Source: Microbacterium sp. SLBN-146
Lineage (GTDB): Bacteria; Actinomycetota; Actinomycetes; Actinomycetales; Microbacteriaceae
Direction of reading: 5' to 3'
Length of the DNA: 64,000 nt
Assembly (NCBI RefSeq): GCF_006715145.1
Contig: NZ_VFMR01000001.1
Location: forward strand, 806,001-870,000
Positions 22,446 through 23,949 of the stretch are shown here, in pieces. How positions within the stretch are numbered: the first letter of the stretch is position 1; every line of letters begins with the position of its first letter. The position numbers and the translations under genes are program-made. Under the pieces are notes generated by a model. It made no database searches, was not told the origin of the DNA, and was given only the letters and a program-made list of their open reading frames with translations.

Positions 22446-22451
22446 GACAAA

Positions 22452-22477
22452 GACCTCCACGAAGATTCGTGAAGGTC
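22452..22477 (-). promoter_or_regulatory. Hairpin sequestering the terC Shine-Dalgarno
   Basis: In the mRNA, GACCTTCACGAA pairs with TTCGTGGAGGTC over 12 positions (one G-U). The GGAGG ribosome-binding site lies in the 3' arm. This looks like the expression platform of the riboswitch, acting on translation. Confidence 0.65.
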
Positions 22478-22479
22478 TC

Positions 22480-22575
22480 ATCGGCTCCCGGTCTCAACGA
22501 CTCGAGTGCCCCGCGCACCGGGTCCCCCAGCGGGACCGTCCTGACGATGCGGAGCGAGGATTACTCCCCTTCGAA
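22480..22575 (-). ncRNA. yybP-ykoY manganese riboswitch aptamer upstream of terC
   Basis: Reading the minus strand, GGGGAGTA (22569-22562) is followed by the CATCGTCAGGACGG block, a central GGGGGACCCGGTGCGC segment, and GAGACC closing the P1 stem (22495-22490). This is the order of conserved blocks in RF00080. TerC-family genes are classic targets. Known riboswitches of this class sense Mn2+. Confidence 0.75.
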
Positions 22576-22588
22576 AGACATTAAACAT

Positions 22589-22604
22589 GTGAAGCATGCT
22601 TCAC
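22589..22604 (-). promoter_or_regulatory. GTGAA-N6-TTCAC operator in the terC promoter
   Basis: GTGAAGCATGCTTCAC is a perfect 16-bp palindrome. It lies in the 18-nt spacer between a leftward TTGACG (-35) and TTTAAT (-10), upstream of the riboswitch. The same half-sites recur twice upstream of the SbtA-type gene. Confidence 0.6.
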
Positions 22605-22632
22605 GTCAAGTCGACGTCCGCCCCGTGAAGAT

Positions 22633-22911
22633 CTAGTGGATGTCCAGCAGAGCGCGGATCAGGTCATCCACCGTGTGCGCCGCGTTCGAGGGGTGTCGGA
22701 GCGGCTTCTCCGGGTGCACGACGTAGTGATTGCGCCGTCCGCGCTTCTCGCGCTCGAGGTAACCGGCATCCTCCAGATCGTTGAGGATCGTGACGGCCGA
22801 GCGGGTCGAGATCTCGACCTTCTCGGCGATGTGCCGCACGGTGGCGTCGTTGTTCGCCGCGACGGCGAGGAGCACGTGCGCGTGATGGGTCAGGAACGTC
22901 CACTGGGCCAC
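22633..22911 (-). CDS. Small winged helix-turn-helix regulator (92 aa)
   Basis: The whole protein is one winged helix: HHAHVLLAVAANNDATVRHI, then AEKVEISTRSAVTILNDLED (recognition helix), AGYLEREKRGRRNHYVVHPE (wing), and a C-terminal helix. It resembles the MarR/ArsR-like regulators found downstream of SbtA-type permease genes in actinobacteria. The GTG start at 22911 has GGAAG about 9 nt upstream. It lies 19 bp after the SbtA-type gene and is probably co-transcribed. GTGAA-N6-TTCAY sites flank this operon on both sides and are good candidates for its operators. Confidence 0.75.
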   Translation of the reverse strand: MAQWTFLTHHAHVLLAVAANNDATVRHIAEKVEISTRSAVTILNDLEDAGYLEREKRGRRNHYVVHPEKPLRHPSNAAHTVDDLIRALLDIH

Positions 22912-22930
22912 TCGCCCATCTTCCCAGCCC

Positions 22931-23887
22931 TCAGAGGACGAGCGCGAGCCAGATGAAGAACGGTATGCCGACGGTCAGGTTGACGGGGAAGGTGACGCCG
23001 AGGCTCGCCGCGAGCGGGTACGCGAGGTTCGCCTCAGGAAGTGACATGCGAACCGCCGCGGGGGCTGCGATATAGGACGCGCTCGCGCAGAGGACTCCGA
23101 GGACGGCAGCTCCTCCCGTGTCGAGTCCCGCGAACGTGCCCGTGACGACCGCTGCGGATCCGACGACGAGCGGAAAGAGGATCGCGAACGTGACGAGACC
23201 GACCGCACCGGTGCGGAGAGCTCCGAACTGCCGGGCGGCATCGATGCCGAGCGCGAGGAGGAACAGCACGAGGGCACCCCGGAAGGCGTCACCGAAGAAC
23301 GGTTCGACGCCGGCGTACCCCGCCTCGCCGATCAGCGCGCCCATCACGAGGCCGCCGACGAGGAGGAGGATCGACTTGCCCGTGAGGATCTCGTGCACGG
23401 TGGCTCCCCACTTCGCATGGCGAGCGGTGTGACGACGGGCCAGCAGCAGGCCGATCAGGATGCCGGGAACCTCGAGCACCGTCAGTATGGTCGCGGCGTA
23501 TCCCGGCACGGCGATCTGAGCTGATTCGAGAGCGACGATCGCGGCGGTGAAGGTCACCAACGACGTCGACCCGTAGTGGGCGGCCACCGATCCGCGATCC
23601 ACGGGCCCCAGCGGCGTCAGCACGCGCAGGGCGAGGTAAGCGAGGACGGGAGTTCCGAGTCCGAACGCGATGGCGAGACCGAGAGGCACCGCGAGCGCGG
23701 CGGGATCGGTGCCCGCAAGCGCCACTCCGCCCTTCAGGCCGATCGCGAGAAGCAGGTAGATCGACAGCGCCTGCGTCATCGCGTCGGGCACCTTGAGGTC
23801 CGATCGCACGGCGACGGCCAGAACGCCCAACACGAAGGCGAGCACCGGCGCGCTCAGCAGGTTGGTCATCGCCGACGAAGCATCCAT
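22931..23887 (-). CDS. SbtA-type sodium-dependent bicarbonate permease (318 aa)
   Basis: The protein has ten membrane helices in the SbtA (PF05982) arrangement: LSIYLLLAIGLKGGVAL in the first half, AAHYGSTSLVTFTAAI, and the second inverted repeat with LVLFLLALGIDAARQFG and SASYIAAPAAVRMSLPEANL. The family imports HCO3- with Na+ in cyanobacteria; actinobacterial members are mostly untested, and substrates may differ. The start ATG 23887 follows GAGGAGAG. The wHTH gene is 19 bp downstream. Two operator-like repeats lie 17-62 bp upstream. Confidence 0.85.
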   Translation of the reverse strand: MDASSAMTNLLSAPVLAFVLGVLAVAVRSDLKVPDAMTQALSIYLLLAIGLKGGVALAGTDPAALAVPLGLAIAFGLGTPVLAYLALRVLTPLGPVDRGSVAAHYGSTSLVTFTAAIVALESAQIAVPGYAATILTVLEVPGILIGLLLARRHTARHAKWGATVHEILTGKSILLLVGGLVMGALIGEAGYAGVEPFFGDAFRGALVLFLLALGIDAARQFGALRTGAVGLVTFAILFPLVVGSAAVVTGTFAGLDTGGAAVLGVLCASASYIAAPAAVRMSLPEANLAYPLAASLGVTFPVNLTVGIPFFIWLALVL

Positions 23888-23903
23888 TCGCTCTCCTCAA
23901 TGC

Positions 23904-23919
23904 ATGAAGTCAAGTTCAC
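23904..23919 (-). promoter_or_regulatory. Operator-like repeat upstream of the SbtA-type gene, proximal
   Basis: The + strand reads ATGAA-N6-TTCAC (minus strand GTGAA-N6-TTCAT). It is one of a pair whose starts are exactly 30 bp apart, about three helical turns. Confidence 0.6.
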
Positions 23920-23933
23920 CCATCGAAGAATAC

Positions 23934-23949
23934 ATGAAACTTACTTCAC
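23934..23949 (-). promoter_or_regulatory. Operator-like repeat upstream of the SbtA-type gene, distal
   Basis: This is a second ATGAA-N6-TTCAC copy, 30 bp from the proximal one. A TATTCT -10-like box on the minus strand lies between the two copies. Confidence 0.6.

Follow-up and report, generated by a model that had tools for sequence, protein, structure and literature searches.

A small winged-helix regulator that may couple an SbtA-type bicarbonate importer with a TerC/Alx manganese exporter in Microbacterium

Introduction

Why should the genes of a putative bicarbonate importer and a putative manganese exporter carry the same palindrome in their promoter regions, with the gene of a small DNA-binding protein lying between them? 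This question is raised by a 64,000-nucleotide stretch of the Microbacterium sp. SLBN-146 genome (C1:806001-870000 of a single contig of 3.61 Mb), hereafter termed the window, in which an sbtA-type permease gene, a small winged-helix (wHTH) gene and a terC gene form a cluster. A preliminary description of the window had proposed that three copies of the palindrome GTGAA-N6-TTCAY tie the wHTH product to both transporter genes. The analysis presented here indicates that one regulator may indeed link the two, and that terC carries in addition a structured leader RNA resembling a manganese riboswitch.

Results

Three palindromes confined to two promoters of one cluster

A pattern scan of the window detected exact GTGAA-N6-TTCAY at three places (Table 1), two before sbtA, which read GTGAA..TTCAT on the minus strand and start exactly 30 bp apart, and one before terC. 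The proposed coordinates and spacing were thus correct, as were the length of the wHTH protein (92 amino acids, aa) and the position of its gene between the terC site and the sbtA sites. A palindrome abundant and unlinked elsewhere would have spoken against the proposal; the whole-genome scan returned these three distinct sites in 3.61 Mb and no other exact copy. Since a reversed control pattern gave 4+4 strand matches in the genome, a handful of such sites is the chance expectation, and the improbable part is their position, all in two promoters of a single cluster. With up to one mismatch on both strands, the window contains 6 matches against a shuffled mean of 1.70, the shuffle maximum of 6 being reached by 1 of 100 shuffles. 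Genome-wide, the one-mismatch scan yielded 41+51 strand matches as compared to 64+66 for the control, so that no wider regulon is visible; a genome-wide regulon was rejected on both the exact and the one-mismatch counts.

The first sbtA site abuts a -10-like hexamer, the junction reading TTCATG-TATTCT. Among 16 leaders in which sbtA comes first, some of them near-copies, an operator-like element is followed directly by TTCNTGTA in 15, L140 being the sole exception, and a TANNNT hexamer is found in 14; those 15 elements comprise 8 exact sites, 6 with one mismatch and 1 with more. Because of this placement against the hexamer, the sites suggest repression. A second sbtA site lies 30-34 bp downstream in the window and in L057, L056, L120, L100 and L121. 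For terC genes with long leaders, an exact site stands ~130-160 bp before the start codon in the window, L100, L056, L110, L111 and L060, and short-leader terC genes (L055, L058 and L059) carry two sites 30-32 bp apart. The counterpart of the terC -10-like hexamer reads TTTGAT in L049 and L054 and is not evident in all relatives. All -35 and -10 assignments were made by eye, a strict scan of the region having returned no sigma-70 promoter.

Table 1. Coordinates of the genes and proposed control elements in the window.
Feature	Coordinates	Strand	Basis or remark
sbtA-type permease, 318 aa	22931..23887	-	PF05982
Small winged-helix regulator (wHTH), 92 aa	22633..22911	-	MarR_2 and MarR profiles
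terC, Alx subfamily, 348 aa	21399..22445	-	PF03741, TIGR03718
Putative sbtA operator, GTGAAGTAAGTTTCAT	23934..23949	-	Directly upstream of the -10-like hexamer; relatives have an exact or degenerate copy at the equivalent position
Hexamer TATTCT (-10-like, following a TG) in the proposed sbtA promoter	23927..23932	-	Sequence reading
Second putative sbtA operator, GTGAACTTGACTTCAT	23904..23919	-	Near the expected transcription start
Putative terC operator, perfect palindrome GTGAAGCATGCTTCAC	22589..22604	.	Exact pattern match
-35-like TTGACG of terC	22604..22609	-	Read from sequence
-10-like TTTAAT of terC	22580..22585	-	Read from sequence; 18 bp from the -35-like element, operator between
Structured leader RNA of terC, yybP-ykoY-like	22470..22575	-	Covariance model R1, 89.4 bits (own training sequence)
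Hairpin in which the ribosome-binding site GGAGGU pairs with the closing helix of the leader (3' strand)	22449..22480	-	13 bp, -20.2 kcal/mol, z -5.40

Products of the cluster

The sbtA product matches PF05982 over the whole length of the family (E 3.3e-98, 329.2 bits, profile positions 3-307 of 308) and its alignment with the solved Synechocystis SbtA (PDB 7cye, E 2e-27) covers both halves of that protein; from these matches we infer a Na+/HCO3- importer of the SbtA type. The terC product matches PF03741 (E 9.2e-56) and scores 412 bits with TIGR03718 (R_switched_Alx) against a cut-off of 246.4. By analogy with the Mn2+ export and metallation activities that the available text of PMC10550928 reports for other TerC proteins, it is probably a Mn2+ exporter or metallation factor.

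The wHTH gene follows sbtA after a gap of 19 bp and is probably co-transcribed with it in one operon, which would make the regulator autoregulated. Its product exceeds the Pfam cut-offs for MarR_2 (PF12802, 39.6 bits against 27), MarR (26.8 against 24.6), TrmB and Penicillinase_R, and by these profiles is therefore a generic winged helix. An AlphaFold monomer model built from 22 sequences has a mean pLDDT of 84.8, and its closest folds by Foldseek are AspA, MarR-type proteins and AF1382 (E 1e-4 to 1e-3). The family signature consists of an N-terminal WTFL..H and a C-terminal GR-N-Y..RH; H10 and H73 are invariant in 22 aligned members, and further histidines are restricted to subgroups.

Conservation of the sites and of the linkage

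In 14 high-GC loci including the window, the 4,250 bp upstream of sbtA or terC contain exact TGAA-N6-TTCA 22 times, as against 2 times in the 112,452 bp elsewhere, with the qualification that 3 of the 22 sites are the window's own and that the sequences are related, so that a Fisher value is no strict probability. The site is missing from all seven terC upstream regions taken from outside the clade of the regulator. Two of these (L239 and L240) belong to same-genus terC genes, 86-89% identical, which keep the RNA leader and have neither operator nor wHTH gene within the fetched 4 kb; elsewhere in their genomes, G176 has only a 56% relative on another contig, and the sampled search gave no match in G174. 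All 3 sites of genome G137 fall inside the cluster. The motif says little in nine small low-GC genomes with an SbtA-linked wHTH, where RTGAA-N6-TTCAY occurs 5-20 times versus 1-4 for the reversed control, and additional RTGAA-N6-TTCAY loci fetched in relatives (L075-L098) contain no SbtA, TerC or wHTH gene except L090 and L092.

SbtA is encoded in 26 of 299 Microbacteriaceae genomes. A family wHTH gene adjoins it in 21 of the 26 (in G144 via L019), and TerC lies within ~1.5 kb in 11, that of G141 being a distant TerC. The five SbtA genomes lacking an adjoining wHTH gene comprise G012 and G416, with partial matches at contig edges, and G030, G366 and G458, which belong to one genus. In a tree of 107 rows, built from chosen loci with rows under 70 aa and near-copies or short duplicates left out (e.g. 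L050, L051, L053, L060, L062 and L072), the window wHTH falls in a 25-row clade with support 99/98. Every row of this clade, two of which are identical, lies within 1.3 kb of SbtA and/or TerC (11 both, 6 SbtA, 8 TerC). Nine tree loci had been fetched through SbtA, so having it as a neighbour by selection, and seven of them (L120, L121, L123, L124, L129, L132 and L136) are in the clade; the remaining 18 clade rows, found via the wHTH or being the window itself, show the same linkage.

This linkage persists through rearrangement. The window has sbtA-wHTH followed by terC; in L100 and L056 sbtA is divergent from wHTH and terC convergent; L055, L058 and L059 have terC-wHTH with no sbtA nearby; L101 and L104 have sbtA divergent from terC-wHTH; and L103 reads wHTH-terC-sbtA, L107 and L129 wHTH-sbtA. 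Two tandem wHTH genes stand beside dabBA, with terC downstream, in L049, L053 and L054. As a separate observation, L052 contains wHTH2 and terC with dabBA not nearby, and its wHTH2 is identical to that of L049.

The wider regulator family and inorganic-carbon pumps

Of 150 Microbacteriaceae genomes, 23 encode the wHTH and 8 encode DabA, the 8 all being among the 23. At each of the nine DabA loci the DabB gene separates DabA from the wHTH gene, and a PII-like gene follows DabA at eight, the ninth stopping at a contig edge; Pfam confirms DabA, DabB and the PII-like protein among the genes of L054 and L063. A further 12 of the 23 genomes have SbtA beside the wHTH and no DabA, three (G028, G064 and G068) have the wHTH with neither DabA nor an adjoining SbtA, and at L116 a SulP permease adjoins the wHTH as well. 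DabBA (MpsAB) is required for growth of Staphylococcus aureus at atmospheric CO2, according to the available text of PMC6689103.

Across the phylum, the wHTH was found in 55 of 396 genomes (61 matches besides the window, 60 of them fetched and a partial one in G589 left out). Within 1.2 kb, these 60 loci contain DabA/DabB-like genes at up to 8, some of these DabB assignments (L197, L208) being possible complex I subunits, SbtA at 4, SulP at 1, TerC at 1 and other probed genes at 9; no probed partner was found within this distance at 37. The queries for P-type ATPase, isocitrate dehydrogenase, carbonic anhydrase, CorC and carboxyltransferase were selected with the same loci already in view, and their counts are descriptive. 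The association with carbon genes is strong within Microbacteriaceae and partial beyond this family, and these neighbourhoods link the regulator family to inorganic-carbon transport in general, through SbtA or DabBA. The relatives linked to DabBA seem, by eye, to use another operator, AAYACG.. / CGTRTT.

Other subfamilies carry inverted repeats with ACGA/TCGT half-sites in the same places, spaced by N8 in L180 and L215 and more widely in L181, which suggests a shifted operator. Isocitrate dehydrogenase genes adjoin family members in two phyla, Actinomycetota and Chloroflexota (L206, L189, L190, L201, L066 and L074), a carboxyltransferase gene adjoins the member in L212, and a beta-carbonic anhydrase gene that in L195.

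A structured leader RNA before terC

Between the terC operator and terC lies a 106-nt leader RNA that was absent from the preliminary description. Long terC leaders share a common fold, which is closed by a GAAGG/CCUUC helix and contains GGGGAGUA, two helices that covary and an asymmetric loop (UCA-UACG). In ten of them, 9 of 25 pairs changed on both sides, four of five covariation measures exceeded all 500 shuffles and the fifth (further pair types) was equalled or exceeded in 9 of 500, counts that are favoured by the derivation of the structure from the same alignment. The conserved covarying fold before a Mn exporter gene, with the GGGGAGUA and AGACC ends of the yybP-ykoY consensus, is thus present in the terC leader. 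The Rfam model RF00080 gave no match in this leader, nor in the loci of nine relatives at E up to 1; the gathering score for membership was not reached, and the element is therefore termed yybP-ykoY-like only. A yybP-ykoY leader of Corynebacterium glutamicum terC was confirmed by RNA-seq in the available text of PMC3890552.

The covariance model R1, trained on the ten long terC leaders, matches beyond this set the TerC leaders of L215 and L068, a second terC in each of L111 and L052 and the leader of a P-type ATPase gene in L207. A weak match is L099, where the element before a VIT1-type gene scores poorly with both RF00080 (24.5 bits) and R1 (21.9 bits). In the window's own genome R1 also detects a second terC (G000:C1:2260210, 48.9 bits) and an element before a gene lacking a Pfam match (G000:C1:1993360-1993457, L244; 39.5 bits); a fourth match is at chance level (E 0.79). 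A protein resembling the one behind the L244 leader is encoded at L049:8195-9112, near terC. At L207:4796-4890 the R1-type leader precedes a P-type cation ATPase gene with a family wHTH gene upstream, placing the regulator and a Mn-type leader together with an unrelated transporter.

A hairpin pairs GGAGGU of the ribosome-binding site with CCUUC of the closing helix, so that the two structures are mutually exclusive, and the lowest-energy fold of the whole leader contains this hairpin. In the folding model the layout is that of an ON switch for translation, whose ligand, by analogy, would be Mn2+. terC thus looks to be controlled a second time, at the RNA level, by an element that resembles a Mn2+ riboswitch.

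Discussion

A proposed carbon-responsive repressor with a manganese output

We consider it likely that the uptake of inorganic carbon is under a dedicated, autoregulated MarR/ArsR-like repressor, and that this repressor also acts on the TerC/Alx Mn exporter, whose translation a Mn-sensing leader may gate. The 92-aa winged-helix protein would bind GTGAA-N6-TTCAY as a dimer, covering the promoter of the sbtA-wHTH operon at two sites and that of terC at one, and so block RNA polymerase. When inorganic carbon runs short, at low CO2 or alkaline pH, both promoters would be freed, a releasing signal that is proposed because of the partners of the family; the SbtA-type Na+/HCO3- importer would then be made and terC transcribed. 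On the terC transcript, the GAAGG/CCUUC closing helix would compete with the hairpin over the ribosome-binding site and allow translation at high Mn2+. With the protein gate and the RNA gate in series, TerC would be a carbon-AND-manganese output. Three observations carry this proposal: the sites are unique to two promoters of the genome, site and linkage are conserved in high-GC relatives, and the site is missing from out-of-clade terC promoters. The suggestion that one regulator ties a bicarbonate-type importer to a metal exporter thereby gains support from conserved operators in high-GC relatives, from linkage across gene orders and from the carbon-pump neighbours of the wider family.

Several results weigh against this proposal. 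The sbtA/terC promoters of 11 low-GC clade loci (4,139 bp) contain no exact TGAA-N6-TTCA, which occurs 2 times in 62,244 bp of the other sequence of these loci; the promoters have degenerate forms of the site or none, the linkage being kept. The terC site has one mismatch in L049, L054, L052 and L053, TTCNTGTA is found in 0 of 5 wHTH-first leaders examined, and 39 of the 107 tree members of the family have no probed neighbour. As to the leader, the covariation counts favour a fold that was drawn from the very alignment on which they were made; R1 finds no leader at the terC genes of L055, L058, L059, L101, L103, L104, L105 and L193, so that the RNA gate is not general; and the RF00080 cut-off was reached in 0 of 18 genomes, its weak matches, to judge by contig numbers, all lying away from terC leaders. 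Finally, binding of the wHTH protein to the sites and its effects on expression are predictions from sequence, and we infer both the inducer and the sign of control.

An alternative that we regard as doubtful is that the regulator senses alkaline pH or a proxy for it, its outputs being bicarbonate supply when CO2 is scarce and Alx-type Mn export. Such a response would account for two unrelated transporters under one switch. A title in the reference list of PMC10550928 states that Escherichia coli Alx tunes Mn at alkaline pH; by the same title, however, that Alx is riboswitch-controlled, and a pH sensor finds no direct support in the sequence.

It is unlikely that the wHTH protein is instead an ArsR/SmtB-like sensor of Mn2+ or Zn2+ with terC as its prime target, the SbtA-type permease then moving an anion for metal homeostasis and not bicarbonate for carboxylases. 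ArsR/SmtB operators share the TGAA-N6-TTCA layout, SmtB is among the weak profile matches of the protein (E 1.3e-4), and His10 and His73 are conserved, with more histidines within the clade. TerC without a nearby SbtA in eight clade rows would also fit a metal sensor, as would the family members that adjoin P-type cation ATPases (best match PMR1-type, below cut-off) or a CorC-type protein. However, the probed partner found most often beside wider-family members is DabBA, mostly without TerC, the score with the NCBIfam ArsR model NF033788 (27.7 bits) is under the cut-off of 55, by which an ArsR metalloregulator was rejected, and a second Mn sensor would be redundant at a terC that already has a Mn-type leader.

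The predicted nature of the binding, together with the low-GC loci that retain the wHTH gene without an exact site, would allow the palindromes to belong to an unrelated regulator with the wHTH gene as a bystander. Yet the gene remains with sbtA/terC through rearrangements, the seven terC promoters outside its clade lack the site and G137 has every copy within its cluster, which makes this very improbable. A simple scan flagged the 22589 palindrome as terminator-like. The reading that the wHTH gene ends there in an intrinsic terminator can be dismissed almost entirely and was rejected, since the palindrome's 6-bp stem has no U run and the same motif precedes sbtA as well as terC genes that have wHTH downstream (L055, L058 and L059).

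Relation to known systems

In cyanobacterial low-CO2 regulons, SbtA is under the LysR-type CcmR/NdhR. The proposed system is alike in placing a repressor over an SbtA-type bicarbonate importer, but the protein is an unrelated 92-aa winged helix in an actinobacterium and terC is apparently controlled too. Relatives of the window wHTH stand beside dabBA, the DabA-DabB or MpsAB pump, whereas the window genome has SbtA and gave no match with the DabA profile; the available text of the MpsAB account (PMC6689103) names no such regulator. The terC leader resembles the yybP-ykoY riboswitch in its GGGGAGUA and AGACC ends, its closing helix over CCUUC, its hairpin at the ribosome-binding site and its TerC target, but is not called by Rfam and is combined with an upstream protein operator. 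Like ArsR/SmtB and MarR repressors, the wHTH has a winged helix, a palindromic operator over the promoter and a MarR_2 score above cut-off, but it is only 92 aa long and has its own N- and C-terminal signature. Each part is of a known kind; as far as we have seen, the combination and the role of the regulator family are new. A literature search, which covered few subscription papers and is hence weak evidence of absence, found nothing that connects either TerC or this regulator to SbtA or DabAB.

The link between carbon uptake and Mn export could possibly arise because alkaline pH underlies both, or reflect Mn-bicarbonate chemistry (complexes or carbonate) or metallation of exported proteins by TerC, an activity described for Bacillus subtilis TerC proteins in the available text of PMC10550928. 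More tentatively, and with somewhat less than even confidence, we propose a functional coupling between the uptake of inorganic carbon and the export of manganese in Actinomycetota, a small winged-helix repressor family controlling whichever importer is available (SbtA or DabBA, perhaps SulP), in one clade also TerC/Alx, and in some species with an RNA gate as well. If this were true, raised cytoplasmic bicarbonate, or an alkaline life, would create a need for Mn2+ removal. The cluster offers a testable candidate for the regulation of bicarbonate supply in non-photosynthetic bacteria, for which the same literature search returned no regulator of this sort; confirmation would give a function to a small, unnamed family of regulators with members across the phylum, and would provide a means of reporting the inorganic carbon status of actinomycetotal cells.

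Neighbouring genes and contigs

The gene after terC in the window is convergent. Elsewhere, small proteins without a Pfam match are encoded directly downstream of terC (L110:4105-4518, L060:4284-4697 and L049:7146-7607). The loci L049, L052, L053 and L054 are near-alike stretches in contigs assigned to Microbacterium, Promicromonospora umidemergens and Tessaracoccus sp. SD287, which points to horizontal transfer or contamination.
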